Shown: piece by piece, positions 196 through 64,000 of the stretch
Position numbering within the stretch: the first letter of the stretch is position 1
How the letters are laid out: every line of letters begins with the position of its first letter
Source: Impatiens glandulifera
Taxonomy: Eukaryota; Streptophyta; Magnoliopsida; Ericales; Balsaminaceae
Reading direction: 5' to 3'
Assembly (NCBI RefSeq): GCF_907164915.1
Contig: NC_061862.1
Location: 35,651,522-35,715,521, forward strand
Length of the DNA: 64,000 bases
The notes under the pieces: model-generated
Database searches by the model: none
Told to the model about the DNA's origin: nothing
The model's input: the letters and a program-made list of their open reading frames with translations, nothing else
Program-made: the position numbers and the translations under genes

Positions 196-2247
196 AAAAG
201 ACAGAATTCGAACACACTAATATTTAGTGCTTGATTATGCGAAAAATTTAAGACAACTAAAAGAAGATTTTTCGAAAATCTCTAAGAACATTGTGTAAGT
301 AGAGGTATGAGGAATTTTTGCAATACAATAATAGTGAAGGTCTCAAAATGCACATACCACGTACCGGGTGAAACTATTTAAATAAATTTATGAAAAGATA
401 ATATAGTTGGATCAATACTAAGGTGAAGTGTGTGACTCGGAATGTCTTGTTACGGTTACGAACTACTAAGGAAGATCAAGGTAAAGTTTGTTGTCTAAAA
501 TTTTGAGTAAAAATTTGAACATAAAGAGAAAAGAAAATATAACTTTTTTAATTTATAGGGTTTTTCCAAAGAGATTACAGTTGTCATAATGTCATCAAAG
601 AATGTATTGGATCGATCGATTGACAGATAAAATTATTGATTGATTATTTTTTCTATGAACTAATCAACTGTTATTTCTGATGGTAACTTCTACCAAGCCA
701 ATATTTGAATCGAAGTTTGGTCATCATCTTCTACCTACTAGTACCTATGTCTCATATTATCTTTTTTGTCTATAATCTTTTGTCAATAAATTTTTCTGAA
801 GTTATTTTTTGACATTTATGTATTTGATTATTAGGGATCAAAATTCTTTAGAGGGTTTTAGCTTTACTGATTATAATAAACTAGCATTCGACAACAAACA
901 TTCAAGTTATTGGCTATATATCGAATGTTAATGGACATTTGAAAACACAATTGAATGGTAAACTCTCCATATGAAGGCTTCGGTATTCTCAAGTTATTTT
1001 CAATAAGGTAAAGTAGACTTTTGTTTTCAAGTTTCTGATTTTGTTCGAATTTGATAATTTGTTTTGATACATTTCTCACAATATTGTTTTACACTTTTGA
1101 ATATTAGCGTGATGAAAAGGTGAGTTGTTTCTTTCTTGTTGTGTTTTCAGGACTGCCCCACTTCAAAGGGTTTTCAATTAATCTTCTATTTGCTATTAGC
1201 AGTGAGTACTTTTCATCATTTGCTTCTTCTAGTTTAGGCTTGGCACAAGGTGATAAACAACACATTATATGTGATCATGGCAACATGATTCATGGGCTAA
1301 ACATCAATCATGGGCTAGACACTTCTTTATCAATAAAATCAAAAAATTCATTAATGCACAGGTTGCGCTCAATATTCTTTATGAAATCTAAAACTTGAAA
1401 CTATTAATACATATCCTTTTAGTTTATACTTTTAGCATACAAGCATACTATAGTTCTATCTAGGTTTTATATTTATAATTTTTATGTATTTTAATTATTT
1501 GTAAATTCATATGTAGTAGGTTACTTGTCAGGTAATATTGATAGAGATGTCAAAGGGATATTGGAATAACTCTCAAATTATTTAAGGAGTTGGCCCTAAG
1601 GCAGCTAATGGTTGACCTGACAAATTTTTTCAACACAAAATAGATCATGGTAATTAAAATTCTTTGGTTGTCTTTGAATAGGCAATCTGGTGCTAGTGGT
1701 TGGACTTCTGGATTTGAGAGGGTAGAGCAATTTACTGAAATTGAATGATGTAAGCTTAACTTTGTTATGTGATGCTCTCTCTATATTTATAGAGTTTTAA
1801 TTATTTTAATTTTATCATTCTTTTAGAACTTGTTTCAAAAATACTAGAAATTCTTAATGCGAATAACGTATAAAATATGTAATGGAATGAACTAAACTGA
1901 TCGCTCTATTATTGCATGGACATGATTTTTTTATACTCACATTCTATTGAATTACAACTTGTTGTATTTATTTAGTTCTTCTTTATAATATATAACTATT
2001 CACCCCTTATATTTTATATGTTAAACAGGATTAATCTCAGATCATGAAGGTGAATCAAATGAGAGACATAAATATATCAAATATTGATGCCATAGAGTAG
2101 AGGCGCTTATCGGCCCATACATGTATAATAATTCTATTTATCTTTTTATTGTGTTTATTATATATAATTGTTTGATTAACACTATACATTATATTTTAAT
2201 TGCAGGATTCCTTCATTATATATCACCGTTTATGAGTTCAAGTAAGT
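196..2247 (+). pseudogene. PEX5: PEX5 N-terminal pseudogene, array copy A
   Basis: PEX5 is the cytosolic receptor that carries PTS1 proteins to the peroxisome; its N-terminal half docks on PEX14 through WxxxF/Y motifs. Here only that half is present, as scattered exon-like pieces. A piece at 558-629 follows an AG acceptor. A piece at 834-904 is a decayed GSEFLEGF..DQNRL segment. The piece at 1149-1389 follows a TTTTCAG acceptor and reads LGLAQGDKQH, then shifts frame to ARHFF-like and FINAQV. The piece at 1532-1748 has lost the RYPHLERFRE stretch by a short deletion but keeps a GYWNNSQ and a W.(S)GFERVEQ segment. The pieces at 2029-2119 (NQMRDINIS..AIE) and 2206-2244 (FLHYISPFMSS, then GTAAG) follow. 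Stops and frameshifts rule out a working protein. The block 196-545 is conserved between copies but not recognised as PEX5 coding sequence. Confidence 0.82.
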
Positions 2248-4344
2248 TATTTTTATCATACTTAAATTTATATTATCATATTTCTATTTTAGAGCATGAT
2301 AGGTTTGTTTTTGAAAGTAATTTTGTTTTATGCATTATAGATTTTAAAAATTATTAGAATTCGAATTAAAATAATCCATGTTTATTTGAAAATAAATAAA
2401 CATATATTACAAATGTTAAAAATATTAATGAATTTATTAAAATATTATTTTTTATATACATATAATTTCTTATTAAATTTAATTTTTTTATTAAATATAT
2501 TTTTATTAAATTTAAATTTGTATTCAACTCATACAAAAGGCATGTTTTTTATATAATTTACATTTAACTTACTTTTATGAAATTTTAAATTTATGTTTAA
2601 TATATTTTGTATTAAATTTTATTTCGTTTTATACTTATAAATTTCTTAAGGATATTATTCTTTTTTTAAATATTCTTATTATATTTATAAATAATTTTAA
2701 ATTTTGAATTAAACTTAATTTTATCATTAATTCATAAACAAAACTTTTATATCTTACATTAAATATATTTTTCATTAAATTTAAATTTGTATTAAACTTA
2801 TAAAAATAACATTTTTTTTAATTTAATATAATATAATATAATTTTGAATTAAACTTATTTTTTATTAAATTTAATTTTACATTAAACTTATTTAAAACAT
2901 ATTTTGCATTCAATTTTATTTAGTTTTTTTACTTATATATTTCTTTTAATAAAAAAATATTTATTTTTAAATTAATCTTATAATCGTTATAAATAATTTA
3001 AAATTTTGACTTAAATTTAAATTTATTGTTTATTCATAAATAAATTTTATATTTTGCATTAAATTTATTTAATTAAATTTATATATATTTATTAAAATTG
3101 CATGTTTTTTCTATAAATATAATATAATTTAAATTTAAATTTATATTAAGCTTTTTATAATTATATTTTTTTTTCTTTTTAATATAATATATATTAAATT
3201 TAATATTTGTATTAAACTTATTTAAAATAAATTTTACATTTTATTTAATTTAGTTTTTTACATATTTATTTCTTATATTAAAAATATTACTTGTTTTTTT
3301 AAATATTCTTATAATTTATAATGTTTATAAATAATTTTAAATTAATGTTTTAAAATTTTTTATAATTTTTATAAATAATTTTTAATTTTCAATTAAAGTT
3401 ATTTTAAATCATTAATTCATAAAAACACATTTATAATTTTATAAAATTAAATTTTCTTTTATTTAATTTATTAAAATTACATTTTTTTTATCAAATATAA
3501 TTTTAATTTAAATTAAATTTAAATTTTGTATTAAACTGATTTTCATTAAATTTGAATTTGTATTAAAGTTTTTTAAAATCATATTTTGAATTATATTTTG
3601 TTTAGTTTTTTACTTATATATTTATTAAATTATATAAGAATATTATTTGTTTTTAAAATATTCTTATAATATTTATAAATAAATTTTAATTTTTAATTAA
3701 ACTTATATTTAGTATTAATTCATAAACAAATTTTTATATTTTACATTATTATTAATCATATTAAAATTGCATTTGTTTTTCATTTAATCTAATATAATTT
3801 AAATTTTGTATTAAACTTACTTTAATAAAATTTAGATTAAACTTATTAAAAATATATTTTTTATTTAATTTTATTTAGATTTTTACATATATATTTCTTA
3901 TATTAAGAATATTATTTATTCTTAAATATTCTTATTTATTATGTTTATAAATAATTTTGAATTCTTCTTATATTTATCATTAATTCATAAATAAAATTTT
4001 CTATTTTGCATTAAATTATATAATTAAATTATATAAATATTGTATTATTTTTATTTATTCTAATATAATTTAAATTTTGAATGAAACCTATTTTCATTAA
4101 ATTTAAATTTGTATTAAATCTATTGAAAACGTATTTTTGTATCAAAGTTTTTAGTTTTTTACTTATATATTTTTTATATTAAGAATATAAATTATTTTTC
4201 TAAATACTATTTTAATGTTTATAAATAATTTTAAATTAAACTTATATTTATCACTAATTCATAAACTAACCTGTATATTTTGTATATTCTTATTAAATTT
4301 AAATTTTTCATTAGTATTAAATAAAAAATCAATATTTGAGAAAA
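2248..4344. repeat. AT-rich block of ~300-bp monomers (after copy A)
   Basis: About 2 kb of A+T-dominated sequence with no gene. The phrase TTTAGTTTTTTACTTATATA or a near variant recurs at about 2621, 2919, 3247, 3600, 3867 and 4148. A second phrase, ATTAATTCATAAA, recurs at about 2731, 3036, 3411, 3716, 3982 and 4255. The two run in the same order and spacing, so the block is about six diverged tandem monomers of roughly 270-350 bp. The block starts just after the exon-8-like piece and its GTAAG, so it could descend from a long PEX5 intron or be an unrelated satellite joined to the gene fragment. Confidence 0.75.
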
Positions 4345-6362
4345 GATCAGAATTTGAACACATTACCATTTACTGCTTGATTATGCGAAAATTCAAAACA
4401 ATTAAAAAAAGATTTTTCGGAAATCTCCAAGAACATTGTCTAAGTAGAGGTATGAGGAATTTTTGCATTACAATAATAGTGAAGGTCTTAGAATGCACAT
4501 ACCACGTACCGGGTGAAACTATTTAAATAAATTTATGAAACAATAATCTAGTTGGATCAATACTAAGGTGGTGTGGCTTAGAATGTCTGGTTACGGTTAC
4601 GAACTACTAATGAATATTAAGGTAAAGTTTGTTGTCTAAAATTTTGAGTAAAAATTTGAACATAAAAAAAAAAGAAAATATATTTTTTTTATTTACAGGG
4701 TTCTTTCAAAGAGATTACAGTTGTCATAATGTCATCAAAGAATGTATTGGATCGATTGACAAGTAAAAATTATTGATTGATTATTTTTTCTATGAACTAA
4801 TCAACCGTTACTTCTGATGGTAACTTCTATCAAGCCAATAATGATCCTCTAAATTTCTTATTTGAATCGAAGTTTTGTTATCATCTTCTACCTCCTAGTA
4901 CCTATGTCTCATCTTATCTTTTTTTGTTTATAATCTTTTGTCAATAGACTAGCAACCGACACCAAACATTCAAGTTATTGGCTATATATCGAATGTTAAT
5001 GGACCTTTGAAAACACAATTGAATGGTAAACTCTCCATATGAAGGCTTCTGCATTCGCTCAATTATTTTCTATAAGGTAAAATAGACCTAATTAAAATTT
5101 GAAATTTATTTTCCAGTTTTTGATTTTGTTTGAATTTGATAAATTGTTTTGATACATTTCTCACGATATTATTTTACACTTTTGAATATTAGTGTGATGA
5201 AAAAGTGAACTTTTTTCTTTCTTGTTGTGTTTCAGGACTTCCCACTTTCAAAGGATTTTTAGTTAATCTTCTACATCAATATCAATATGCTATTAGCAGT
5301 GTGTTCTTTTTCATCATTTGTCTCTTCTAGCAGTATACGTGATCATAGCAACATGAATCATGGGCTAGACACTTATTTATAAATAAAAACAAAGAATTCA
5401 TTAATGCACGGGTGCGCTCCATATTTTCTATGAAATCTAAAATTTGAAACTATTGATACATTTCCTTTTAGTTTCTAATTTTATAATACAAGCATAATGT
5501 GTCATGGTCCATCCAAACTATAGTTTTGTCTAGGTTTTATATTATACAATTTCTATTCATTTTTATTATATGTAGTATGTTGTTTGTCAGGTAATATTGA
5601 TGGATATGTGAAAGCTAGATACCCTGACTTTAAAAGATTCTGTGAATTGGAGGGATATTGAAATAACTCTCAAATTATTTAGAGAGTTGGCCCTAAGGAA
5701 GCTAATTGTTGGGTTGACAAATTTGTTCAACACAAAATAAATCATGGTAATCCAAATTCTTTGGAGAGGCAATTTGGTGCTAGTGGTTGGAATTCTGAAT
5801 TTTAGCGGGTAGATCAATTTACTAAAATTGAATGATGTAAGCTTAACTTGGTTTTGTGATACTCTCTATATATTTACAGAGTTTTAATTATTTTTATTTT
5901 ATCATTTTTTGAAAATTGTTTCAAAAGCACTAGATAATCTAAATGTGAAAAACGTGTAAAACATCTAGTGGAATGAATTAAACTATTATCTCTATTATTG
6001 CATTTACATGATTTTTTTATACTCACATTCTATTGAATGGTTGTAATTTGTTATATTTATTTAGTTCCTCTTTTTAATATAAAACTATTGACACCTTTAT
6101 GTTTTATATGTTAAACAGGATTAATCTCAAATCATGAAGGTGAATCAAATGAGAGATGTAAATATATCGGATATTGCTGTCATGGAGTAGAGGCGTAGAG
6201 GCGTAGAGGCGCATTAGTATCCATACATGTAAAATAATTCTATTTTTCTTTTTATTGTGTTTATTATATATAATTGTTTGATTAAATCTGTACAATATAT
6301 TTTAATTGCAGGATTCCTTCATTATATATCACCGTTTATGAGTTCGTTTATGAGTTCAAGTA
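4345..6362 (+). pseudogene. PEX5: PEX5 N-terminal pseudogene, array copy B
   Basis: Recognisable pieces lie at 4699-4763, 4813-4912, 4938-4980, 5235-5440, 5590-5835, 6118-6227 and 6311-6359. This copy has lost the end of one intron and the GSEFLEGF coding segment, so sequence near 4,945 jumps straight to ..RLATDTKHSS. It has also lost the GLSQGDKQH part of the 5235 piece. The 5590 piece keeps DVKARYP and the FCELEGYWNNSQ-like stretch, then a TAG, and the GWVDKF motif as G.LTNLF-like in a shifted reading. A three-fold GTAGAGGC slippage is visible at 6187-6209. Near 6340 the phrase GTTTATGAGTTC is duplicated. Confidence 0.8.
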
Positions 6363-8384
6363 AGTTATTTTATTGAACTACTTAAATTTATATTATCATA
6401 TTTCTATTTTAGAGCATGATAGGTTTGATTTTAAAAGTATTTTTTTTTATACATTATAGATTTTAAAAATTATTAGAATTCAAATTTAAATAATCTATGT
6501 TGATTTGGAAATAAATAAACATATATCATATGCTAAGTTTAACTTTGTAAATGTTAAAAATATTAATAAATTTATCAAAATATTATTTTTTATACAAATT
6601 TAATTTTTTTTATTAAATATATTTTTTTAAATTTAAATTTGTATTCAACTCATAAAAAAGGGATGTTTTCTATTTAATCTGCATTTAACTTACTTTTATT
6701 AAATTTTAAATTTACATTTAACATATTTTGTATTAAATTTTATTTGGTTTTATACTTATATATTTCTTAAGAATATTATTTTTTTTAAATATTCTTATTA
6801 TATTTATAAATAATTTTAAATTTTGAATTAAACTTATTTTTATTATTAATTCATAAACAAACTTTTATATCTTGCATTAAATATATTTTTATTAAATTTA
6901 AGCTAATATAATATAATTTTTTATAATTTAAGCTAATATAATATAATTTTGAATTAAACTTATTTTTTATTAAATTTAATTTTACATTAAACCTACTTAA
7001 AACATATTTTGCATTCAATTTTATTTAGTTTTTTTAATTACATATTTCTTTTATTAAATATAATATTTATTTTTAAATTAATCTTATTATCTTTATAAAT
7101 AATTTAAAAATTTGACTTAAATTTAAATTTATTATTAATTCATCAATAAATTTTATATTTTACATTAAACATAATTAATTAAATTTATATATGTATTAAA
7201 CATATTAAAATTGCATTTTTTCTATAAATATAATATAATATAATTTAAATTTAAATTTATATTAAGATTTTTATAATTATATTTTTTTCTTTTTAATATA
7301 ATATAATGAAATTTAATATTTATATTAAACTTATAAAAAATAAATTTTACATTTTATTTAATTTAGTTTTTTACTTATTTATTTCCTATATTAAATATTA
7401 AGAATATTACTTGTTTTTTAATAATTCTTATAATTTTTATAAATAGTTTTAAGTTTTAAATTAAAGTTTTTTTAAAAATATTTTATAATTTTTATAAATA
7501 ATTTTTAATTTTCAATAAAAGTTATTTTAAATCATTAATTATGAAAACACTTTTATATTTTTATAAAATTAATTTTTCTTTTATTAAATTTATTAAAAAA
7601 AATTCTCTATTTAATCAAATATTATTTTAATTTAAATTAAATATAAATTTTGTATTAAACTGATTTTCATTAAATTTGAATTTGTATTAATTTTTTTAAA
7701 AAACATATTTTGAATTAAATTTTGTTTAATTTTTTATTTATATATTTATTGTATTATATAAGAATATTATTTATTTTTAAAATATTGTTTATAAATAATT
7801 TTTATTTTTTATTAAACTTATAGTTATTATTAATTTATAAACAGATTTTTATATTTTGCATTATTATTAATTATATTAAAATTGTATTTTTTTTCCATTT
7901 ATTCTAATATAATTTAAATTTTGTATTAAACTTACTTTTATAAAATTTAAATTTAGATTAAGCTTATTAAAGATATATTTTGTATTAAATTTTATTTAAA
8001 TTTTTACATATATATTTCTTATATTAAGAATATTATTTATTCTTAAATATTCTTATTATATTTATAAATAATTTTGAATTCAACTTATATTTATCATTAA
8101 TTCATAAACAAAATTTTCTATTTTGCATTAAACTTATAAATATTGTATTATTTCTATTTATTCTGATATAATTTAAATTGAAAGTTGTATTAAACCTATT
8201 TTCATTAAATTGAAATTTGTATTAAATCTATTAAAAACGTATTTTTATATTAAACTTTTTTTAGTTTTTAAATTAAACTTATATTTATATCTAATTCATA
8301 AACTAATTTGTATATTTTGTATAATTTTTATTAAATTTAAAATTTTTATTAATATTAAATAAAAAACCAATATTTGAGAAAAGA
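6363..8384. repeat. AT-rich block of ~300-bp monomers (after copy B)
   Basis: Same organisation as the block after copy A, with the monomer phrases ATTAATTCATAAA and ATTTAG-TTTTTA-TTATATA recurring about every 300 bp. A 35-bp local duplication with the phrase AAGCTAATATAATATAATTTT lies at about 6,900-6,950. No gene is seen. Confidence 0.75.
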
Positions 8385-10512
8385 TCAGAATTCGAACAAA
8401 TTATCACCATTTTGTGCTTGATTATGCGAAAAATTCAAGACAACTAGAAAAAGATTTTTCGGAAATCTCCAAGAACATTGTGTAAGTAGAGGTATGAGGA
8501 ATTTTCGCATTACAATAATAGTGAAAGTTCGAGAATGCACATACCACGTACCGCATTAAACTATTTAATTAAATTCAAGAAATTATAATCTAGTTGGATC
8601 AATAGTAAGGTAAAGTGTGTTGCCCGAAATGTCTAGTTACGAACTACTAATGAAGATCAAGGAAAAGTTTGTTGTCTAAAATTTTGAACATAAAGAGAAA
8701 AGAAAATATATTTTTTTTAATTTACAGGTTCTTCTAAAGAGATTACAGTTGTGATAATGTTATCAAAGAATGTATTAGATCAATTGACAAGTAAAAGTTA
8801 TTGATTGATTGTTATTTCTATGAACTAATAGACCGTTACTTCTGATAGTAACTTCTACCAAGCCAATGATGGTCCTCTAAATTTTTTATTTGAATCTTGC
8901 ATGGTCATCATCTTCTACCTACTACTACCCATGTCTCATCTTATCTTTCTGTCTTTAATCTTTATTTCTTAACATTTATGTATTTGATTATCAGGGATCA
9001 AAATTCTTAGGAGGGTTTAAGCTCTACTGATTAGAATAGACTTGCAACTGACATCAAACATTCAAGTTATTGGCTATATATCGAATGTTAATGGACATTT
9101 GAAAACACAATTGAATGGTAAACTCTCCATATGAAGGCTTCTGTATTCTCAAGTTATTTTCTATAAGGTAAAGTAGACCTAATTAAAATTTTAAATTTGT
9201 TTTCATGTTTCTGATTTTGTTCGAATTTGATAATTTGTTTTGATACATTTCTCACAATATTGTTTTACACTTTTGAATATTAATGTGATGAAAAAGTGAG
9301 TTGTTTGTTTCTTGTTGTGTTTCAGGACTGTCCTCATTCAAAGGATTTTTAGTAAATCTTCTACATCATTTTTCTATTAGCACTGTGTTCCTTTTCATCA
9401 TTTTCCTCCTCTAGTTTTAGGCTTGACACAAGGTGACAAACAACACAGTATATGTGATCATAGCAACATGAATCATGGGCTAGACACTTTCTTTATCGAT
9501 AAAAGTAAAGAATTCATTAATGCACAGGTTGCGTTTCTTCTCTGTGAAATCTAAATTTTGAAACTATCGATACATTTTCTTTTAGTTTCTACTTTTAGAT
9601 ACAAGCATAATCTATCATGGTCTATCCTAACTATAGTTCTGTCTGGGTTTTATATTTTACAAATTCTATGCATTTTCATTATTTGCAAATTCACATTTAG
9701 TATGTTATTTGTTAGGTAATATTGATAGAGATGTCAAAGCTAAATACCCTCACCTTGAGAGATTCCGTGAATGGGAGGGATATTGGAATAACTCTCAAAT
9801 TATTTAGAGAGTTGGTCTTAAGGCATCTAATGATTGGGCTGACAAAGTTGTTCAACACAAAATAAAATAGATCATAGTAATCTGAATTCTTTGGTTGTGT
9901 TTGGAGGGGCAATCTGGTGCTTTTGGTTGGACTTCTGAATTTGAGCGGGTAGAGCAATTTACTAAAATCAAATGATGTTACATCTTAATTTGGTTATGTG
10001 ATGCTATTTATATATTTAGAGAGTTTTAATTATTTTAATTTTATTATTCTTTTGGAACTTGTTTCAAAATCACTAGAAAATTTAAATGCGAAAAACGTGT
10101 AAAATATCTAGTGGAATGAACTAAACTGATCTCTATTATTGCATTGACATGATTTTTTTATACTCACATTCTTTTTAATGGTTGTAACTTGATGTATTTA
10201 TTAAGTTCTTTTTTTAATATACATTATTGACACATTTATGTTTTGTATGTTAAACATGATTAATCTCAGATCACGAAGGTGAATCAAATGAGAGACGTAA
10301 ATATATCGGATATTGCTGCCATAGAGTAGAGGCGCTTGTTGGTCCATACATGTATAATAATTCTATTCATCTTTGTTGGTCCATACATGTATAATAATTA
10401 TAAATATCTTTTTATTGTGTTTATTATATATAATTGTTTGATTAACACTATACAATATATTTTAATTGCAGGATTCCTTCATTATATATCACCATTTATG
10501 AGTTCAAGTAAG
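8385..10512 (+). pseudogene. PEX5: PEX5 N-terminal pseudogene, array copy C
   Basis: Pieces lie at 8727-8790, 8838-8935, 8995-9070, 9325-9550, 9715-9975, 10257-10350 and 10471-10508. The 9715 piece reads ..DVKAKYPHLERFREWEGYWNNSQ before a TAG. The later part keeps the ..GWADK and FGWTSEFERVEQF segments in two different frames, which is the shared frameshift of the array. The 10257 piece reads NQMRDVNISDIAAIE. A 40-bp local duplication (TTGGTCCATACATGTATAATAATT twice, 10,340-10,400) is specific to this copy. Confidence 0.82.
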
Positions 10513-12587
10513 TTATTTTCATCCTACTTAAATTTATATTATCATATTTCTATTTTAGAGCATGATAGGTTTGTTTTTAAATTAATGAGTCATTTTTTTT
10601 ATGCATTATAAATTTTAAAAATTATTCGAATTCAAATTTAAATAATTTATATTTATTTAGAAATAAATCAACATATATCATATACTAAGTTTAACTTTGT
10701 AAATGTTAAAAATATTATTAGGTGTTTTAAAATATTATTTTTTGTATAAATATAATTTCTTATTTAATTTAAAACTTTCATAAAATTTAAATTTGTATTC
10801 ACCTCATACAAAAGGCACGTTTTCTATTTAATTTGCATTTAACATACTTTTATTAAATTTAAATTTACATTTAACATATTTTGTATTAAATTTTATTTCG
10901 TTTTATACTTATATATATCTTAAGAATAATTTTTATTTTTTAAATATTCTTATTATATTTATAAATAATTTTAAACTTTGAATTAAACTTATTTTTATCA
11001 TTAATTCATAAACAAACTTTCATATTTTGCATTAAAAATATTTTTCATTAAATTTAAATTTGTATTAAACTTATAAAAATGGCATCTTTTCAATTTAATC
11101 TAATATAATTTGAATTAAAATTATTTTTTATTAAATTTAATTTTACATTTAACCTATTTAAAACATATTTTGTATTCAATTTTATTTAATTTTTTATTTA
11201 TAAATTTTTTATATTAAAAATAATATTTTTATTTAAATCAATCTTATAATCGTTATAAATAATTTAAAATTTTGACTTAAATTTAAATTTATTATTAATT
11301 CATAAATAAATTTTCTATTTTACATTAAATATATTAATTAAATTTAAATTTGTATTAAACATATTAAAATTTCATTTTTCTATAAATATAATATAATTTA
11401 TATTTATATTTATATTAAGCTTTTTATAATTATATATTTATTTTAAATTTAATATTTATATTAAACTTATTAAAAATAAATTTTACATTTTATTTTATTT
11501 AGATTTTTACTTATATATTTCTTATATTAAGAATATTACTTATTTTTTAAATATTCAAATAATGTTTATAAATAATTTTAAATTTTAAATTAAAGTTTTT
11601 TTTATATATTTTATAATGTTTATAAATAATTTTAGTTTTCAATTAAATTTATATTAAATCACTAATTCATAAAAAAAAAAACTTTTATATTTTTATAAAA
11701 TTAATTTTTTTTTTATTAAATTTTATAAAATTAAATTTTTATTTATTTAATCAAATATAATTTTAATTTTAATTTTTTATTAAACTGATTTTCATTAAAT
11801 TTGAATTTATATTAAATTTTTAAAAAAATATATTTTGAATTATTTTTTATTTAATTTTTTTACTTAAATATTTATTATATTATATAAGAATATTATTTAT
11901 TTTTATAATATTTATAAATAATTTTTAATTTTTAATTAAACTTATATTTATTATTAATTCATAAACAAATTTTTATATTTTTCATTAGTATTAATTATAT
12001 TAAAATTGTATTTTTTTATTTAATCTAATATAATTTAAATTTTGTATTAAACATACTTTTATAAAATTTAAATTTAGATTAATCTAATTAAAAATATATT
12101 TTGTACTAAATTTTATTTATATTTTTACATATATATTTCTTATATTAAGAATATTATTTCTTCTTAAATATATTATATTTATAAATAATTTTGAATTCAA
12201 CTTATATTTATCATTAATTCATAAATAAAATTTTCTATTTTGAATTAAACTTATAAATATTGTATTATTTTTATTTATTATAATATAATTTAAATTTTGC
12301 ATGAAACCTGTTTTTGTGAAATTTAAATTTGTATTAAATCTATTGAAAAAGTTTTTTTTAGTTTTTTTTACTTATATAATTTTTATATTAAGAATATAAT
12401 TTATTTTTCTAAATATTATTATAATGTTTATAAATAATTTTAAGTTAAACTTATATTTATCACTAATTCATAAACTAACATGTATATTTTGTATATTTTT
12501 TTATTAAATTTAAATTTTTCATTAGTATTAAATAAAATACTAATTTTAAGTTAAACTTATATTTATCACTAATTCATAAACTAACAT
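10513..12587. repeat. AT-rich block of ~300-bp monomers (after copy C)
   Basis: Same monomer family as the other blocks. The part from 11,474 onward is the first copy of a 1,430-bp direct duplication. Near 12,540 the phrase TTTTAAGTTAAACTTATATT is repeated from 12,440, so the junction with the next gene fragment has been locally rearranged. Confidence 0.72.
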
Positions 12588-12903
12588 TGCCATTTTGTGC
12601 TTGATTATGGGAAAAATTCAAGACAACTTAAAGAAGATTTTTCAGAAATCTCCAAGAACATTGTGTAAGTAGAGGTATGAGGAATTTTCGCATTACAATA
12701 ATAGTGAAAGTCCGAGAATGAACATACCACGTACCGGGTGAAATTACTTAAATAAATTCAAGAAACGATAATCTAGTTGGATCAATACTAAGGTGAAGTG
12801 TGTTGTCTGGATTGTCTGGTTACTGGTTACGAACTACTAATGAAGATCAAGGTAAAGTTTGTTATCTAAAATTTTGAGTAAATATTTGAATAGAAAGTGA
12901 AAA
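12588..12903 (+). pseudogene. PEX5 array copy D, 5' fragment only
   Basis: Only the conserved 5' block is present (from TTGCCATTTTGTGCTTGATTA to ..TTTGAATAGAAAGTG). It then jumps into AT-rich monomers at 12,904. No PEX5 coding piece is left. It exists because of the 1,430-bp duplication, and its intact counterpart is the start of copy E. Confidence 0.75.
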
Positions 12904-36606: not shown

Positions 36607-36618
36607 CTTGTTTATGAA

Positions 36619-39156: not shown

Positions 39157-39162
39157 GAAAAC

Positions 39163-45145: not shown

Positions 45146-45149
45146 ATTT

Positions 45150-52080: not shown

Positions 52081-52084
52081 ATCT

Positions 52085-52552: not shown

Positions 52553-52718
52553 AATCAATAATACATTGTAATTTTTATTTGTTCATTTTAAATAAAGCTC
52601 TCAAACTCATTCATGAACAGAGAATCCTCTAATTTGTCTTTTTTTTTCATACACAAAATGTTAAAATATGTCATTCTAGTTCAAAATTTGACCATATGTA
52701 GAGGCTCTCACCCTGAGA
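52553..52718. other. Spacer between two gene fragments
   Basis: Includes an AATAAAGC polyadenylation-like signal at about 52,591-52,598, which fits the end of the GH17 transcript unit. Nothing else is recognised. Confidence 0.45.
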
Positions 52719-53797
52719 GATTCAAGAGTTTGTTACTGAGTCGGAACGAGGAGGATTCGCTGTCAAACTACAAGAAGAAGAGGATTGGCTGTATGAAGAT
52801 GGGGAGGATGAGACTAAAGGAGTATACGTTGATTAACTTGATGAACACAAGAAGGTACTATTTTCAATACTCTCCATCTTCTGAATTTGGAGGAATTTCT
52901 TTTAGCCTAACTTCAAAAACCTAATTTGTAGCAAGGTGATCCTATTGAAGAGCGCCACAAGGAACATACAAAGAAGGGTTCAGTGATAGACCAGCTTGTG
53001 TATTGCATCAATAGCTACAGAGAGGCTGCAAAATGTCAACTGATCCCAAGTTCGATCATATTGAATTATCGGAGAAAGAAAAGGTATTAAGAGTTTTTTT
53101 TTTTTTTTTTTCATATAATCTCTTTGTTTTACATATATTAGTAACACCTTGTTTGGAAGAAGACCTCTAAAACACCATTGTGTTATTTTAGTCTAATTTA
53201 TTTAAAATCTCCGATCAAAAGCCTGAATTTGTTTTCAAACAAGAAGTCAGATTAAGTTCTTAAATTTTCCAAAACAAGCCTAACTTAAAAAAGTCTTCTT
53301 TCTCATACGGTAATGTTTATCACTTAATATGCTGTTTATCACTTAATATGCTGTTTGTTATGCATTTTTTAAGTTTGGATAATGATCTATAAAAATCTAC
53401 ATTTGACTAAATTCACAATGATATTTATATCAAATGAAGCTAAAATTCATATTTTCATTCAGTTCTTGATTTAAAAATAATCATAACACCAAATCAAAAA
53501 AAAAATTACACTATAATCTCAATAGTGATCTAGAAAACAATCTGAATTATGATCCAGAAAATGATCTTACCAATTGACAATTTTTCAATGAATGAAAGAT
53601 TGCAACAACATACCTGTTTCTTCCAAATAGTCTGGAAAATTATATTTTAGGTTTAGTTATTAAAGTTTATATAAATTTACTTTCTTTCTTAAGTATTGTA
53701 GAATTAAAGTGGTCATATGCAGATTTCTTACTATTATATATTGTATTTTCAGGTACTGAATGAGTGTATGGAAGCTGGTTGGTTAAGAGAGAAAAAG
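52719..53797 (+). pseudogene. Internal fragment of an Hsp110-class chaperone gene (HSP70-14/15-like)
   Basis: Three exon pieces with introns. Exon 52,720-52,854 encodes IQEFVTESERGGFAVKLQEE, then DWLYEDGEDETKGVYVD, an in-frame TAA and LDEHKK before a GTACTA donor. Exon 52,932-53,083 follows a TTTGTAG acceptor: GDPIEERHKEH, GSVIDQLVYCINSYREAA, then a 2-base insertion and STDPKFDHIELSEKEK. Exon 53,753-53,797 follows TTTTCAG: VLNECMEAGWLREKK, with two residues fewer than usual. This order is characteristic of the C-terminal helical region of plant cytosolic Hsp110/HSP70-14/15, nucleotide-exchange partners of Hsp70 (family recalled, not searched). The ATPase domain is absent. Retained introns mean copying at DNA level. 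Confidence 0.87.
53147..53635. repeat. Possible MITE in the Hsp110 intron
   Basis: The intron has CTTGTTTGGAAGAAGACCT at about 53,150 and, near 53,612, ACCTGTTTCTTCCAAATAG, roughly its reverse complement. The phrase ATGCTGTTTATCACTTAAT is repeated at 53,325-53,355. Without a target duplication this remains tentative. Confidence 0.35.
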
Positions 53798-54174
53798 TAG
53801 CTGCATGATTCCTTCATTATGATTCCTTCATTATATATTAGTTAAAGTAAATTATTTTCATCATACTTAAATTTATATTAAAATATTTCTATTTTATAGC
53901 ATGGTAATAGTAGGTTTGTTTTTAAATGAATAAGTTATTTTTTTTATGATTTTAAAAATTATTAGAATTCGAATTTAAATAATCCATGTTTAATTGAAAA
54001 TAAATAAACATCTATACTACGTTTAACTTTGTAAATGTTAAAAATATTATTTGATTTATTAAAATATAATATTTTGTATAAATATAATTTCTTATTAATT
54101 TGAAATTTTCATTAAATATATTTTTATTAAATTTAAATTTGTATTTAACTCATACAAAAGGCATGTTTTCTATT
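53798..54174 (+). pseudogene. Array restart: exon-8-like piece and AT-rich fragment (copy I, first part)
   Basis: About eight bases after the last Hsp110 codon the sequence becomes GATTCCTTCATTATGATTCC, i.e. the start of the exon-8-like piece of the array, written twice, then TATATATTAG and the AT-rich block. That block lasts only to 54,172, where GGCATGTTTTCTATT jumps to GAAAACACAATTGAAAG of the exon-4-like region. A deletion inside one unit is the simplest reading. Confidence 0.75.
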
Positions 54175-55109
54175 GAAAACACAATTGAAAGATAAACTCT
54201 CCATATGAAATCTAAAATTTTGAAACTATTAATACATATCCTTTTAGTTTCTACTTTTAGCATACAAGCATAATGAGTCTTGGTTCATCCAAACTATAGT
54301 TCTATCTAGGTTTATATTTTACATATTTATGTATTTTCATTATTTGTAAATTCATATGTAGTATGTTACTTGTCAGGTAATATTGATAGAGATGTCAAAC
54401 CTAGATACCCTCACCTCGAAAGATTCCGTGAATTGGAGGGATATTGGAATAACTCTCAAATTATTTAGAGAGTTGACCCTAAGGCAGCTAATGGTTGACC
54501 TGACAAATTTTTTAACACAAAATAGATCATGGTAATCTAAATTCTTTGGTTGTCTTTGAAGAGGCAATCTAGTGCTAGTGCTAGTGCTAGTGGTTGGACT
54601 TCTGGATTTGAAAGGGTAGAACAATTTACTGAAATTGAATGATGTAAGCTGGTTATGTGATGCTCTCTATATTTATAAAGATTTAATTATTTTAATTTTA
54701 TCATTCTTTTGGAACTTGTTTCAAAAGTACTAGAAAATCTTAATGCGAATAACGTGTAAAATATGTAGTGGAATGAACTAAGCTGATCTCTCTATTATTG
54801 AATTGACATTATTTTTTTTATACTCACATTCTATTGAATAATTGTATTTATTTAGTTCCTCTTTTTAATATACAACTATTGACACCTTTATGTTTTAATC
54901 TCAGATCATGAAGGTGAATCAAATGAGAGACGTAAATACATCCGATATTGCTGCCATAGTGTAGAGGCGCTTATCGGCCCATACATGTATAATAATTCTA
55001 TTTATCTTTTTATTGTGTTTATTATATATAATTGTTTGATTAACACTATACAATATATTTTAATTGCAGGATTCCTTTATTATATATCACCGTTTATGAG
55101 TTCAAGTAA
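54175..55109 (+). pseudogene. PEX5: PEX5 N-terminal pseudogene, array copy I (3' part)
   Basis: Starts inside the exon-4-like piece (to 54,207), skips the GDKQH piece, and then keeps the exon-6-like piece at 54,378-54,645, reading DVKPRYPHLERFRELEGYWN then NSQII and TAG, and in the other frame LERQSSASASASGWTSGFER, with a GCTAGT triplet expanded to three (54,572-54,590). The 54,896 piece reads NQMRDVNTSDIAAIV, and the 55,068 piece reads FLYYISPFMSSSK. Confidence 0.82.
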
Positions 55110-57189
55110 GTTATTTTTATCCTACTTAAATTTATATTATCATATTTCTATTTTAGAGCAGGATAAGTTTGTTTTTGAAAGTCATTTTTTTTATGCATTA
55201 TAGATTTTAAAAATTATTAGAATTCAAATTTAAATAATTAATGTTTATTTGAAAATAAATAAACATATATCATATACTAAGTTTAACTTTGTAAATGTTA
55301 AAAATATTAATAAATTTATTAAAATATTATTTTTTATATAAATGTAATTTCTTATTAAATTAATTTTTTTTATTAAATATTTTTTTATTAAATTTAAATT
55401 TGTATTCCACTCATACAAAAGGCATGTCTTCTATTTAATTTGCATTTAACTTAATTTTATTAAATTTTAAATTTACATTTAACATATTTTGTATTAAATT
55501 TTATTTCGTTTTATACTTATAAATTTCTTAAGGATATTATTCCTTTTTAAAATATTATTATTATATTTATAAATAATTTTAAATTTTAAATTAAACATAA
55601 TTTTATCATTAACTCATAAAAAAAACTTTTATATCTTGCATTAAATATATTTTTCATTAAATTTAAATTTGTATTAAACTTATGAAAATTAAATTTTTTT
55701 AATTTAATTTAATTTAATTTAATCTAATCTAATAAAATTTTGAATTAAACTTATTTTTTATTAAAATTAATTTTAAATTGAACTTATTTAAAATGTATTT
55801 TGCATTCAATTTTATTTAGTTTTTTTACTTATATATTTCTTTTAATAAAAATAATATTTATTTTTAAATAAATTTTATAATCGTTATAAATAATTTAAAT
55901 ATTTGACTTAAATTTAAATTTATTATTAATTCATAAGTAAATTTTATATTTTACATTAAATATATTGAATTAAATTTATATATGTATTAAACATATTAAA
56001 ATTGCATTTTTTTTTTCTATAAGTATAATATAATTTAAATTTATATTTATATTAAGCTTTTTATAATTATATTTTTTCTTTTTAATATAATATATATTAA
56101 ATTTAATATTTGTATTAAAATTATTTAAAATAAATTTTACATTTTATTTAATTTAGTTTTTTACATATTTATTTCTTATATTAAGAATATTACTTGTTTT
56201 TAAATATTCTTATAATGTTTATAAATAATTTTAAATTTTAAATTAATTTTTTTAAAAATATTTTATAATTTTTATAAATAATTTTTACTTTTCAATTAAA
56301 GTTATTTTAAACCATTAATTCATAAAAACACATTTATATTTTTATAAAATTTAATTTTCTTTTATAAAATTTTTTAATATTACATTTTTTTCTATTTAAT
56401 CAAATATAATTTTAATTAAAATTAAATTCAAATTTTGTATTAAACTGATTTTCATTAAATTTGAATTTGTATTAAATTTTTTTAAAATCATATTTTGAAT
56501 TATATTTTGTTTAGTTTTTTACCTATATATTTATTAAATTATATAAGAATATTATTTATTTTTAAAATATTCTTATAATATTTATAAATAATTTTTAATT
56601 AAACTTACATTTATTATTAATTCATAAATAATTTTTTATATTTTACATTATTGTTAATCATATTAAAATTTCATTTTTTTCATTTAATCTAATATAATTT
56701 AAATTTTGTATTAAGCTTACTTTTATAAAATTTAGATTAAACTTATTAAAAATATATTTTGTATTAAATTTTATTTAGATTTTTACATATATATTTCTTA
56801 TATTAAGAATATTATTTATTCTTAAATATTCTTATTTATTATGTTTATAAATAATTTTGAATTCATTTTATATTTATCATTAATTCATAAACAAAATTTT
56901 CTATTTTGCATTAAACTATATAATTAAATTATATTAATATTGTATTATTTCTATTTATTCTAATATAATTTAAATTTTGCATGAAATGTATTTTTATTAA
57001 ATTTATATTTGTATTAAATCTATTCAAAACGTATTTTTGTATTAAATTATTTTCCTAAATATTATTTTAATGTTTATAAATAATTTTAAATTAAACTTAT
57101 ATTATTACTAATTCATAAACTAACTTGTATATATTTTATTAAATTTAAATTTGCATTACTATTAAATAAAAAATTAATATTTGAGAAAA
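55110..57189. repeat. AT-rich block of ~300-bp monomers (after copy I)
   Basis: Close to the blocks after copies A and J in monomer order. A short TTTAATTTAATTTAATTTAA run lies near 55,700. No gene is seen. Confidence 0.75.
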
Positions 57190-57287
57190 GATCAGAATTC
57201 GAACACACTACCATTTAGTGCTTGATTATGCGAAAAATTAAAACAACTAAAAGAAGATTTTTCGGAAATCTCCAAGAACATTGTGTA

Positions 57288-57295
57288 AGTAGAGG
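57288..57295. repeat. 8-bp target duplication of the hAT element, left (agtagagg)
   Basis: agtagagg precedes the element and is repeated at 58,929-58,936. Sister units read GTAAGTAGAGGTATGAGG without interruption. Confidence 0.95.
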
Positions 57296-58928
57296 CAGTG
57301 GCGGACCTACAAGGGGGGCCTTGGGGGGCCCGGGCCTCCCCCAACCTTACAATAATTTGTTTATATATATATATATTTAACAAATAACTCTTAGTCTAGT
57401 TGGTTTTGTAGCTCAACCGTGAACCTAATTCATAATTATTTTAATTTTATATAAATAAAGTATAAAAAATATATATATAATAATATTATTTATTTTGAAA
57501 TTATATTTATATAATAATTATACATTATTTTTTATTTATTTCAATATAATAATACAAATTACTTATATTTTGAAATTATATTTATATAACAATTATACAT
57601 TATTTTTTATTTATTTCAATATAATAATACAAATTACTTATGAGGGTAAAATATAAAAATTAAAATAATAATAGTTTTTTATATTTCTTAATTTTAAACT
57701 ATTTTAAAAATTTATAAGAAAATATAAATTAATATTAATAAACAAGTTAAAATATTTACATTATTTTTGTATTTTTATTTTTATTAATATTTTTTATTTT
57801 TTTTTATATTCTCATAAAATTAGGCTGAAACATATTAAATTAGATTTTCATATTTTTTATATAGTTAGTTTTTTATGAATTTTTTTTTGTGTTATATTTG
57901 ATGAAAAATTTATTGGGAATTACAAGTGAGTTATCACTTTGCCTACAAAGAGGAGATCAAAATATAGTTCAAGCCATGTCATTGATTGCGAGTTCGAAAA
58001 ATCAATTACAAAAATTTAGAGAAGATGGATGGCATGATATTTTGGACCAAGTTAACAGTTTTTGTCAATTACAATCGATCTCAATACTTGATATGAATGA
58101 GCATATGATAATTGATAGCAATGGTAGGCGAAGAGGAAAAGGAGAACTCATCACTAATCTTCATCATTATCGTGTGGAAATCATTTGTCAGGTATAATAA
58201 ATATTATTTCTTATCTATTAATAGTTATTATATATTATCTATTAATAGTTATTATTTATTATTTAATGCTAGGTTGTTGACTTGATTATGCAAGAAATAA
58301 ATAATCGTTTTTCAGAAGTTAATACAGAATTACTTGATTGCATATCATGTCTTCATCCCAGAAATTCATTCTCCAAATTTGATATTCGTAAACTCATTCG
58401 TCTTGCCAAACTTTATTCTGGAGATTTCATAGGCAGTGATTATTTATTTTTGGAACAACAACTTCGGGCTTACTTATTTAATTTGCGAGATGATCCTCAA
58501 TTTTCTTCAATTGAAGACTTGGAAATTTTTGCTCAGAAATTGGTTATAACAGAAAAAACATATAGTTTTTCCATTGATTTATCGATTGATGGAGTTGGTT
58601 TTAGTTTTACTAGTTGCAACTGTATCCGTTGAAAGAGTTTTTTCTGCAATGAAGACCGTGAAAACTAATTTGCGTAATCGAATGGAAGATGAATGGATGA
58701 ATGATAGTTTAGTTGTATATGTTGAGAAAGATATTTTCTCAACAATTGAAAATGAGCCAATATTGCAATATTTTCAACAAATGGAATCTCGTAGAATAAA
58801 TTTGTCTAGTATTTTATATAATTATCAAGTAAAATTTTAATTAAAAATGCATTTATTTGATCGCCAAAAAAATGCTACGTTACTATGTATTCGGCCCCCC
58901 CGAGAAAAGATTTCTGGGTCCGCCACTG
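57296..58928 (+). mobile_element. hAT-superfamily DNA transposon, 1.63 kb, internally deleted
   Basis: Ends are CAGTGGCGGACC on the left and its reverse complement GGTCCGCCACTG on the right, flanked by an exact 8-bp target duplication, the length typical of hAT. Subterminal sequence is GGGGGGCC-rich (GGGGGGCCCGGGCC and GGCCCCCCCG), unlike the AT-rich target. The body holds the C-terminal part of a transposase. About 550 AT-rich bases on the left include a 72-bp direct duplication at about 57,497-57,640. It lies within the 5' block of PEX5 copy J and so is younger than that unit. Confidence 0.93.
57889..58840 (+). pseudogene. hAT transposase, C-terminal part (TTF/DUF4371-type family)
   Basis: Two segments in one frame (57,889-58,197 and 58,282-58,632) and a third shifted by one base (58,574-58,840). 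They read LLGITSELSLCLQRGDQNIV, KFREDGWHDILDQV, then across a short intron-like gap (CAG/GTATAA at 58,191 to TGCTAG at 58,272) VVDLIMQEINNRFSE, SELLDC-like, KLIRLAKLYSGDF and FAQKLVITEKTYSF. The dimerisation motif follows: VATVSVERVFSAMK, KTNLRNRMEDEWMNDSLVVY. A one-base insertion near 58,567 breaks the frame just before it. The N-terminal zinc finger and the first catalytic acidic residues are absent, so no active enzyme is made. Confidence 0.88.
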
Positions 58929-58936
58929 AGTAGAGG
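58929..58936. repeat. 8-bp target duplication of the hAT element, right (agtagagg)
   Basis: Exact copy of 57,288-57,295; followed by TATGAGGAATTTTTG of the array. Confidence 0.95.
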
Positions 58937-60944
58937 TATGAGGAATTTTTGTATTACAATAATAGTGAAGGTCTCAGAATGCTAAGGTGGAACTATTTAA
59001 ATAAATTTATGAAACGTTAATCTAGTTGGATCAATACTAAGGTGAAGTGTGTGGCTCGGAATGTCTGGTTACGGTTACAAACTACTAATGAAGATCAAGG
59101 TAAAGTTTGTTGTCTAAACTTTTGAGTAAAAATTTGAACATAAAGAAAAAAGAATATAATTTTTTTAATTTACAGAGTTCTTCCAAAGAGATTACATTTG
59201 TCATAATGTCATCAAAGAATGTATTAGATCGATTGACAGGTAAAAACTATTGATTGATTATTTTTTCTATGAACTAATCAACCGTTATTTCTGATGGTAA
59301 CTTCTATCAAGCCATTAATGATCCACTAAATTTCTTATTTGAATCGAAGTTTGGTCATCATCTTCTACCTACTAGTAACTATGTCTCATCTTATCTTTTT
59401 GTCTATAATATTTTGTCAATAAATTTTTCTGAAGTTATTTTTTGACATTTATGCATTTGATTATCAGGGATCAGAATTCTTGAGAGGATTTTCGCTCTAC
59501 TGATTAGAATAGACTAGCAACCGACAATAAACATTCAAGTTATTGGCTATATATCGAATGTTAATGAACATTTGAAAACACAATTGAATGGTAAACTCTC
59601 CATATAAAGGCTTCTGTATTCTCAAGTTATTTTCTATAAGGTAAAAGTAGACCTAATTAAAATTTTAAATTTGTTTTCTTTCTGATTTTGTTCGAATTTG
59701 ATAATTTGTTTTGATACATTTCTCACAATATAGTTTTTCACTTTTGAATATTAATGTGATGAAAATGTGAGTTGTTTCTTTCTTGTTGTGTTTCAGAACT
59801 GTCCTACTTCAAAGGGTTTTCAATAAATCTTCTATTTGCTATTTGCAGTGAGTTACTTTTCATCATTTGCCTCTTCTAGTTTTAGGCTTGGCACAAGGTG
59901 ATAAAAAACACAGTATACGTGATCATAGCAACATGAATCATGGGCTAGACACTTCTTTATCAATAAAAGCAAAAAATTCATTAATGCACAGGTTGCGCTC
60001 AATATTCTTTATGAAATCTAAATTTTGAAAATATTAATACATATCCTTTTAGTTTTTACTTTTAGCATACAAGCATTATGTGTCATGGTTCATCCAAACT
60101 ATAGTTCTATCTAGATTTTATATTTTACAATTTTTATGTATTTTCATTATTTGTAAATTCATATGTAGTATGTTACTTGTCAAGTAATATTGATAGAGAT
60201 GTCAAAGCTAGATACCCTCACCTTCAGAGATTCCGTGAATTGAAGGGATATTGGAATAACTCTCAAATTATTTAGGGAGTTGGCCCTAAGGCAACTAATG
60301 GTTGACCTGACAATTTTTTTCAACACAAAATAGATCATGGTAATCCAATTTTTTTTGGTTGTATTTGAAGAGGCAATCTGGTGCTAGTGCTAGTGGTTGG
60401 ACTTCTGGATTTTAGAGGGTAGAGCAATTACTGAAATTGAATGATGTAAGTTTAACTTGGTTATGTGATTTTCTCTCTATATTTATAGAGTTTTAATTAT
60501 TTTAATTTTATCATTCTTTTGGAACTTGTTTCAAAAGTACTAGAAAATCTTAATGCGAATAACGTATAAAATATGTAGTGGAATGAACTAAACTGATCTC
60601 TCTATTATTGCATTGACATGATTTTTTTATACTCACATTCTATTGAATTGTTGTAACTTGTTATATTTATTTAGTTCCTCTTTTTAATATACAACTATTG
60701 ACTCCTTTATGTTTTATATGTTAAACAAGATTAATCTCAGATAATGAAGGTGATCATGAAGGTGAATCAAATTAGAGACGTAAATATATCGGATATTGCT
60801 GCCATAGTGTAGAGGAGCTTATCTGCCCATACATGTATAATAATTCTATTTATCTTTTTATTGTATTTATTATATATAATTGTTTGATTAACACTATACT
60901 TGCAGGATTCCTTCATTATATATCACCTTTATGAGTTCAAGTAA

Positions 60945-63002
60945 GTTATTTTTATCCTACTTAAATTTATATTATCATATTTTTATTTTAGAGCATGATA
61001 GGTTTGTTTCTGAAAGTCATTTTTTTTAAGCATTATAGATTTTAAAAATTATTAGAATTCGAATTAAAATAATCCATGTTTATTTGAAAATAAATAAACA
61101 TATATTACAAATGTTAAAAATATTAATAAATTTATTAAAATATTATTTTTTATATAAATATAATTTCTTATTAAATTTAAATTTTTTATTAAATATATTT
61201 TTATTAAATTTAAATTTGTATTCAACTCATACAAAAGACATACTTTTTATTTAATTTGCATTTAACTTATTTTTATTAAATTTTAAATTTACATTTAATA
61301 TATTTTGTATTAAATTTTATTTCATTTTATACTTATAAATTTCTTAAGGATATTATTCTTTTTTTAAATATTCTTATTATATTTATAAATAATTTTAAAT
61401 TTTGAATTAAACTTAATTTTATCATTAATTTATAAACAAAACTTTTATATCTTACATTAAATATATTTTTCATTAAATTTAAATTTGTATTAAACTTATA
61501 AAAATAATATTTTTTTAATTTAATCTAATATAATATAATTTTGAATTAAACTTATTTTTTTATTAAATTTAATTTTACATTAAACTTATTTAAAACATAT
61601 TTTGCATTCAATTTTATTTAGTTTTTTTACTGATATATTTCTTTTAATAAAAATAATATTTATTTTTAAATTAATCTTATAATCGTTATAAATAATTTAA
61701 AATTTTGACTTAAATTTAATTTTATTATTAATTCATAAATAAATTTTATATTTTACATTAAATATATTTATTAAATTTATATATATGTATTAAACATATT
61801 AAAATTGCATTTTTTTCTATAAATATAATATATTTTAAATTTAAATTTATATTAAGCTTTTTATAATTATATTTTTTTCTTTTTAATATAATATATATTA
61901 AATTTAATATTTGTATTACACTTATTTAAAATAAATTTTACATTTTATTTAATTTAGTTTTTTACATATTTATTTCTTATATTAAAAATATTACTTGTTT
62001 TTTAAATATTCTTATAATGTTTATAAATAATTTTAAATAATTTTTTTTAAATATTTTATAATTTTTATAAATAATTTTTAATTTTCAATTAAAGTTATTT
62101 TAAATCATTAATTCATAAAAACACATTTAAATTTTTATAAAATTAATTTTTTTTATTTAATTTATTAAAATTACATTTTTTTATCAAATATAATTTTAAT
62201 TTAAATTAAATTTAAATTTAAATTTTGTATTAAACTGATTTTCATTAAATTTGAATTTGTATTAAATTTTTTAAAATCATATTTTGAATTATATTTTGTT
62301 TACTTTTTAACTTATATATTTATTAAATTATATAAGAATATTTGTTTTTTAAATATTCTTATAATATTTATAAATAAATTTTAATTTTTAATTAAACTTA
62401 TATTTAGTATTAATTCATAAACAAATTTTTATATTTTACATTATTATTAATCATATTAAAATTGCATTTTTTTCATTTAATCTAATATAATTTAAATTTT
62501 GTATTAAACTTACTTTTATAAAATTTTAGATTAAACTTATTAAAAATACATTTTTTATTAAATTTTATTTAGATTTTTACATATATATTTCTTATATTAA
62601 GAATATTATTTATTCTTAAATATTCTTAATTATAATGTTTATAAATAATTTTGAATTCATCTTATATTTATCATTAATTCATAATTGTTTTTTTCTATTT
62701 TACATTAAACCATATAATTAAATTATATAAATATTGTGTTATTTCTATATATTCTAATATTATTTAAATTTGTATTAAATCTATTCAAAACGTATTTTTG
62801 TATTAATGTTTTTAGTTTTTTACTTATATATTTTTTATATTAAGAATATAAATTGTTTTTCTAAATATTATTTTAATGTTTATAAATAATTTTAAATTAA
62901 ACTTATATTTATCACTAATTCATAAACTAACTTGTATATTTTGTATATTCTTATTAAATTTAAATTTTGCATTACTGTTAAAAAAAACCAATATTTGAGA
63001 AA
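60945..63002. repeat. AT-rich block of ~300-bp monomers (after copy J)
   Basis: Very like 2,248-4,344 along its whole length, including the TATATTAAATTTAATATTTGTATTA segment. About six monomers by the recurring TTTAGTTTTTTAC phrase. No gene is seen. Confidence 0.75.
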
Positions 63003-64000
63003 AGAACAGAATTCGAACACACTAACATTTAGTGCTTGATTATGCGAAAAATTCAAGACAAATAAAAGAAGATTTTTCGGAAATCTCCAAGAACATTGTG
63101 TAAGTAGAGGTATGAGGAATATTTGCATTACATAATAGTGAAGGTCTCAGAATGCACATACCACGGGTGAAACTATTTAAATAAATTTATGAAACAATAA
63201 TCTAGTTGGATCAATACTAAGGTGAAGTGTGTGGCTCAGAATGTCTGGTTACGATTACGAACTACTAATGAAGATCAAGGTAAAGTTTGTTGTCTAAAAT
63301 TTTGAGTAAAAATTTGAACATAAAGAAAAAAGAAAATATAATTTTTTTTAATTTACAGGGTTCTTCCAAAGAGATTACAGTTGTCATAATGTCATCAAAG
63401 AATGTATTGGATCGATTGACAGGTAAAAATTATTGATTGATTATTTTTTCTACGAACTAATCAACCGTTATTTCTAATGGTAACTTTTATCAAGCCAATA
63501 ATGATCCTCTAAATTTCTTATTTGAATCAAAGTTTGGTCATCATCTTCTACATACTAGTACCTATGTCTCATCTTATCTTTTTTGTCTATAATCTTTTGT
63601 CAATAAATTTTTCTAAAGTTATTTTTTGACATTTATGCAGTTGATTATCAGGGATCAGAATTCTTTAGAGGGTTTTAGCTCTACTGATTAGAATAGACTA
63701 GCAACCGACAACAAACATTCAAGTTATTGGCTATATATCGAATGTTAATGGACATTTGAAAACACAATTGAATGGTAAACTCTCCATATGAAGGCTTCTA
63801 TATTCTCAAGTTATTTTCAATAAGGTAAAGTAGACCTAATTAAAATTTTAAATTTGTTTTCAAGTTTCTGATTTTGTTCGAATTTGATAATTTGTTTTTG
63901 ATACATTTCTCACAATATTGTTTTACACTTTTGAATATTAGTGTGATGAAAAGGTGAGTTGTTTTTTCTTGTTGTGTTTCAAGACTGCCCTACTTCAAAG
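63003..64000 (+). pseudogene. PEX5: PEX5 N-terminal pseudogene, array copy K, cut by the window end
   Basis: 5' block from 63,003; pieces at 63,359-63,422, 63,474-63,570 and 63,651-63,720 (GSEFFRGF.LY, then STD.NRLATDNKHSS), and the start of the GDKQH-type piece at 63,982. Shares with copy A small details absent from C-H, such as TTCTCAAGTTATTTTCAATAAGG, so A and K are close relatives although 60 kb apart. The remainder lies beyond the window. Confidence 0.82.

Follow-up and report, generated by a model that had tools for sequence, protein, structure and literature searches.

Introduction

Gene-derived macrosatellites and arrays of pseudogenes are known in kind. Human D4Z4 (DUX4) and RS447 (USP17) are gene-derived macrosatellites whose units carry open reading frames and whose copies are nearly alike. 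A pseudogene of CAP-G, a gene-derived sequence, is reportedly found on a grasshopper B chromosome, and among plant satellites of traced origin ribosomal spacers are one frequent source. Retrotransposons are often another, as stated in a study that also describes retrotransposon-derived satellites in Lathyrus, where non-satellite sequence became tandem in a plant (PMC7004042). Here we describe a stretch of 64,000 nucleotides of the Impatiens glandulifera genome (C1:35651522-35715521, hereafter the window), in which a fragment of the gene for PEX5, the receptor of the peroxisomal targeting signal 1 (PTS1), recurs head to tail together with AT-rich DNA. We put the probability that this array is a macrosatellite, founded by a genomic PEX5 fragment joined to an AT-rich sub-repeat tract, at about 0.78.

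The birth of satellite DNA is an open question. A literature search by title and beginning of the abstract, mostly outside subscription papers, found no PEX5-derived satellite, and full-text queries naming PEX5 returned no match. The word 'satellite' does not occur in the main text of the Impatiens noli-tangere genome paper (PMC12598466).

PEX5 identity of the repeat

A preliminary description, made from the sequence alone, had read the window as a satellite-like array of truncated PEX5 genes and named tblastn with Arabidopsis PEX5 as a check. With this query we obtained plus-strand matches in the order that had been stated (best E 6e-12), and the reversed sequence, used as a decoy, gave two matches, both with E 7.5. 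Plant PEX5 proteins were then compared using the best 120 of 496 proteins passing a protein search, a list ordered by similarity to Arabidopsis, from which other Ericales may be absent. The two I. glandulifera proteins ranked first (P0067; 1960 summed bits against the window, best E 2e-25) and second (the paralogue P0118; 1310 bits) of the 120, and the best other plant was Actinidia (P0043; 1138 bits). The PEX5 identity of the units is thus secure.

The proposed truncation to the N-terminal half was also borne out. Past residue 310 of P0067 no match was found in the window at E 0.01, and as the tetratricopeptide repeat (TPR) half, which binds PTS1, starts near residue 474 and spans about 474-712, it is absent from the array units. 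Residues 51-310 are clearly represented, and the flanking pieces (from ~36 and to ~330) are weak. Of the exon-like pieces originally listed, the internal ones held up, but the first piece and FLHYIS are weak when taken alone (scores 13-26) and owe their assignment to position. Between the pieces lies, as had been supposed, sequence other than PEX5, bordered by GT/AG in the consensus. A processed pseudogene is ruled out by the retention of this intron-like sequence.

PEX5 pieces were also seen in protein models of other plants. Five Vicia faba models (P0157, P0162, P0170, P0174, P0203), on contigs of three different lengths, contain them, four of the five including the stretch of exons 5-6; here a PEX5 fragment may have dispersed independently. 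In three Lactuca models (P0204, P0207, P0209) an N-terminal PEX5 piece is fused with other domains, e.g., prolyl endopeptidase or kinase, which may be annotation fusions.

Structure of the unit and of the window

The unit is ~4.1 kb long and consists of ~2.1 kb of intron-bearing PEX5 DNA and ~2 kb of AT-rich DNA. GC content within the array alternates, over stretches of 2 kb, between about 26-29% and about 11-14%. A donor-like GTAAGT of the last exon is followed shortly by the AT-rich part. The nine AT-rich parts measured have 8.0-9.8% GC and contain sub-repeats; in the three blocks tested for internal repeats the best self-shift was 268 bp in A and J (~71%) and 193 bp in F (70%). The AT-rich parts align with each other in many registers.

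Units A to K all lie on the plus strand (Table 1), in keeping with the head-to-tail repeat originally proposed. The count of eight near-complete copies (A-G and J) was reproduced, further copies being partial, and units are present in both flanking 10-kb stretches, so the array does extend past both ends of the window. The initial view that positions 196 to 64,000 are array throughout was too simple. A 13.3-kb retrotransposon, an unrelated block of ~10.2 kb and a 1.6-kb hAT element interrupt it, and after their removal the share of the array in the window is ~39 kb. The PEX5 parts of the window copies are 83-95% identical (differences of 5-17%). At gathering thresholds, nothing in the window matched Rfam.

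Decay of the copies

Residue identity, stops and frameshifts were counted per copy, using exon segments with a score of 20 or more. Each of the eight near-complete copies carries stops (1-5) as well as frameshifts (1-6), and their residue identity to P0067 is 59-68%. Mean divergence was 0.139 in exons vs. 0.120 in introns (44 unit pairs, the remaining one of 45 having no overlap). Of three exon segments tested, two had codon position 3 as the slowest and one had it as the fastest. We then surveyed stops in 38 units, each 1.45 kb or longer, drawn from five clusters. All 31 units that could be read at the site had a stop in exon 7 (7 gave no reading); an exon-6 stop (TAG or TAA) was present in 29 of 38, and an exon-4 TAG in 27 of 38, with 5 unread. 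As the exon-7 stop is common to every readable unit, the founder was probably dead already before amplification; the exon-6 and exon-4 stops are not universal, indicating that decay continued after founding.

These results bear on whether the copies could be functional, or recently functional, truncated PEX5 genes, e.g., a TPR-less form serving PEX7 or PEX14 only. The retained region, which we take to hold the PEX7-binding part and the WxxxF motifs, and the splice-site-like borders kept in the consensus would suit such a role. Yet with all eight near-complete copies broken, exons diverging no slower than introns, the third codon position slowest in two of three segments and one stop shared by all readable units, we regard it as very improbable. 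In addition, none of the 90 short PEX5 proteins listed, many of which lack an organism name, was named Impatiens. The label 'genes' of the preliminary description is therefore not tenable: judged by their reading frames, the copies are pseudogene fragments, not genes.

C-to-T and G-to-A changes were commoner in CG (60/454) and CHG (84/574) than in CHH contexts (375/4511), a bias that would be consistent with DNA methylation without proving it, and at most an indirect hint of a heterochromatic location.

Distribution in the genome

The 654-Mb assembly of 1110 contigs was searched with an exon-5 query and with exon 6 of unit F, and the best 40 of 214 and the best 40 of 272 candidates, respectively, were scored; the two lists overlap in the units matched. 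All 40 exon-5 matches and 39 of the 40 exon-6 matches lie on C1, making 79 of 80 scored matches on this contig and one on C5 (C5:21175870-21176101; 88% to unit F exon 6), which could be a transferred copy or lie near the founder. On C1 the matches fall, in both orientations, at 27.30-27.31, 35.37-36.10, 44.70, 61.85-61.89, 64.95-65.08, 69.36, 71.53-71.71 and 72.73 Mb, and those around the window span 733 kb. PEX5 units were found in 20 of 20 sampled 10-kb tiles, of which 17 are at or beside matches or the window and three (35.50, 35.60 and 35.80 Mb) were placed at a distance from the matches known at that stage. Sampling of about 264 kb yielded 65 delimited unit pieces, with ~4.1-kb spacing and the same AT-rich partner across the sampled clusters.

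The separate places, the two orientations and the isolated matches at 44.70 and 69.36 Mb of C1 and on C5 would be expected if PEX5 had been captured and spread by a transposon of the Helitron or Pack type. Head-to-tail arrays and multi-unit blocks that include unrelated DNA are unusual for such elements, however, and we consider this origin improbable. A non-satellite alternative, in which part of a gene was simply duplicated in tandem long ago and transposons were added, would agree with the low homogenisation and the ladder-like tree of units in the window described below. It is nevertheless an unlikely description of matches across 733 kb at one site plus further clusters, with regular spacing, a constant AT-rich partner and duplication of blocks, although the boundary between such a duplication and a satellite is partly a matter of wording.

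Growth of the array

Several pairs of long, similar blocks were found: 8.4 kb at 97.2% identity and 222 kb apart, 6.1 kb at 95.0% and 288 kb apart, and 7.7 kb at 92.3% and 56 kb apart, the last carrying about half of the unrelated block with the GH17 fragment. For the 38 units, the nearest relative was adjacent in 2 cases, 40-352 kb off in the same cluster in 30, and in another cluster in 6. Both the 61.8-Mb and the 65.0-Mb cluster contain units from a younger-type and from an older-type branch of the tree, as though whole blocks rather than single units had moved. These patterns suggest that the array grew mostly by large multi-unit blocks. No fixed higher-order period was found, the shifts of blocks and units varying (about 56, 63, 174, 222, 241 and 288 kb). 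Growth unit by unit alone, which the ladder tree of the window had indicated, was overturned by units sampled elsewhere on C1.

Several observations weigh against this interpretation and the macrosatellite reading. Units A-G branch ladder-like in the order in which they lie along the window (Mantel r 0.46, a value reached or exceeded by 110 of 5040 orderings), and small tandem duplications are present (1.43 kb at 97.5%, 0.4 kb at 90%), so growth at the level of units also acts. Sampling by 10-kb tiles leaves some close neighbours unseen. Mean divergence was nearly equal within clusters (0.102; 298 pairs) and between them (0.112; 404 pairs; one of 703 dropped for short overlap), pointing to little homogenisation. 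The 733-kb stretch was sampled by tiles and not seen as continuous, with runs of N in tiles L012, L015, L016 and L018, one of them 5000 long. As the scored matches are the best 40 of each candidate list, spread to other contigs is underestimated. Finally, rolling-circle reinsertion is a possible growth mechanism, as is break-induced copying.

The reading that we favour, a macrosatellite founded by a PEX5 fragment, would run as follows. The founder would be a duplicated, already dead piece of PEX5 (about residue 36 to 330, with introns), which, joined to an AT-rich sub-repeat tract, would give the tandem unit. Because the AT-rich tracts match in many registers, they would allow non-allelic copies to misalign, and unequal exchange would duplicate single units and, more often, many-unit blocks. 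Such exchange through the AT-rich tracts seems to us the likeliest growth mechanism, held with some reservation. Intrachromosomal transfer or inversion would have given rise to the other clusters, and the array, lacking a coding function, would decay neutrally, probably in methylated heterochromatin. A related possibility, which we think unlikely, is that PEX5-fragment DNA is a dominant (peri)centromeric or knob-type satellite of one large chromosome in this lineage, with a structural role and with growth in blocks measuring tens to hundreds of kilobases.

The preliminary term 'satellite-like' thus holds for the tandem arrangement, but not for homogenisation of the kind seen in a young satellite, given 83-95% identity and growth largely by multi-unit blocks. 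Units run head to tail and a multi-kilobase unit is present in many copies; homogenised copies, which we treat as usual but not required for macrosatellites, were not found.

Insertions and dates

The retrotransposon is of the Ty3/gypsy type with long terminal repeats (LTRs) and sits in the copy after unit G, flanked by the target-site duplication GACAT at 28239-28243 and 41535-41539. Aligned over 2415 columns, its LTRs show 49 differences (94.9% identity with gaps counted; ~2.1% of ungapped sites). An empty site for this element exists in a sister block (L025) 174 kb distant, 96.9% identical over 5.3 kb. Plant substitution rates are 1.3e-8 to 7e-9 per site per year, at which the insertion would be roughly 0.8-1.5 million years old; for the most divergent units of the window, 15-17% apart, the same rates would put the split at roughly 6 to 13 million years before present. 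Inside the element lie tandem repeats of 67 bp (14.6 copies; 30988-31966) and ~151 bp (3.9 copies; 33658-34274).

The insertions also speak against an assembly artefact. Tandem arrays are error-prone and some tiles contain runs of N, but between window copies the PEX5 part varies by 5-17%, there are private insertions with target-site duplications, and one of these has an empty sister site; the probability of an artefact is close to negligible.

The fragment in the unrelated block comes from a GH17 glucanase, of which it represents the C-terminal part (PF00332, E 8.9e-25). Peptides beside it are tentatively HSP70-like; two pieces gave no match in Pfam and one piece none in PDB. The right half of the block recurs upstream of the window (L009 2500-7589) at 94.7% identity, which suggests that it was duplicated along with the array. 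The block also holds a ~570-bp direct repeat, 93% identical and back to back (46419-46986, 46984-47539). The 1.43-kb tandem duplication covers an AT-rich part and the beginning of the following unit.

Table 1. Features of the window (positions counted from its first nucleotide; for the units, identical residues, stops and frameshifts are relative to P0067).
Feature	Position	Strand	Remarks
Unit A, PEX5 part	180..2260	+	AT-rich partner 2300-4320; 101/170 identical, 5 stops, 4 frameshifts
Unit B, PEX5 part	4325..6362	+	AT-rich partner 6400-8360; 117/185 identical, 4 stops, 1 frameshift
Unit C, PEX5 part	8363..10526	+	AT-rich partner 10570-12560; 133/216 identical, 2 stops, 5 frameshifts
Tandem duplication, 1.43 kb	11472..14345	+	11472-12914 and 12902-14345; 97.5% identity, 14 mismatches
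Unit D, PEX5 part	14030..15991	+	AT-rich partner 16020-17900; 117/183 identical, 1 stop, 4 frameshifts
Unit E, PEX5 part	17919..19807	+	AT-rich partner 19840-21560; 115/183 identical, 3 stops, 5 frameshifts
Unit F, PEX5 part	21550..23700	+	AT-rich partner 23700-25690; 140/234 identical, 3 stops, 5 frameshifts
Unit G, PEX5 part	25690..28216	+	PEX5 part to 27815; 146/215 identical, 3 stops, 6 frameshifts
Duplicate of exons 6-7, 0.4 kb, after unit G	27814-28216	+	90% identical to 27281-27678
Ty3/gypsy-type LTR retrotransposon, 13.3 kb	28244..41534	-	LTRs 28244-30623 and 39163-41534; reverse transcriptase, RNase H and integrase domains
Remainder of the retrotransposon-split unit	41535..43570	+	exon 7 region 41535-41891; AT-rich part 41900-43570
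Unrelated block, ~10.2 kb	43590..53800 (borders approximate)		GH17 fragment 52049-52474
Unit fragments	53802..57160	+	unit end 53802-54173; unit I 54204-55124, its AT-rich part 55170-57160
Unit J, PEX5 part, split by hAT element	57170..60959	+	AT-rich partner 60990-62975; 132/210 identical, 4 stops, 4 frameshifts
hAT element, 1.6 kb, inside unit J	57296-58928		terminal inverted repeats CAGTGGCGGACC/GGTCCGCCACTG; 8-bp duplication AGTAGAGG; Dimer_Tnp_hAT E 6.3e-9
Unit K	62984..64000	+	cut by the window end; continues in tile L010

Comparison with known systems

The array shows clearly how part of a gene can become satellite-like DNA. Its sequence reveals the gene of origin, a founder that was probably dead, the AT-rich partner, growth by blocks and later transposon insertions, so that the birth and growth of a macrosatellite become reconstructable and datable here. 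The array sequence also directly gives a probe for fluorescence in situ hybridization (FISH) of the C1 chromosome.

Compared with the PEX5 gene of I. glandulifera (P0067, P0118), the units have its sequence, the order of its pieces and the introns of its N-terminal half in common, but they lack the TPR half and a constrained open frame, and lie in tandem with AT-rich DNA. The grasshopper CAP-G pseudogene and the Impatiens array both represent a host-gene pseudogene away from its home locus, although no B chromosome is implied in Impatiens, C1 being a 162-Mb contig. With the Lathyrus satellites (PMC7004042) the array has a non-satellite origin in common, the source in Impatiens being a fragment of a host gene. 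Like D4Z4 and RS447, the Impatiens array has a unit of several kilobases that contains gene sequence and runs head to tail; it differs from these in that all copies tested are broken, introns have been retained and divergence between copies reaches 17%.

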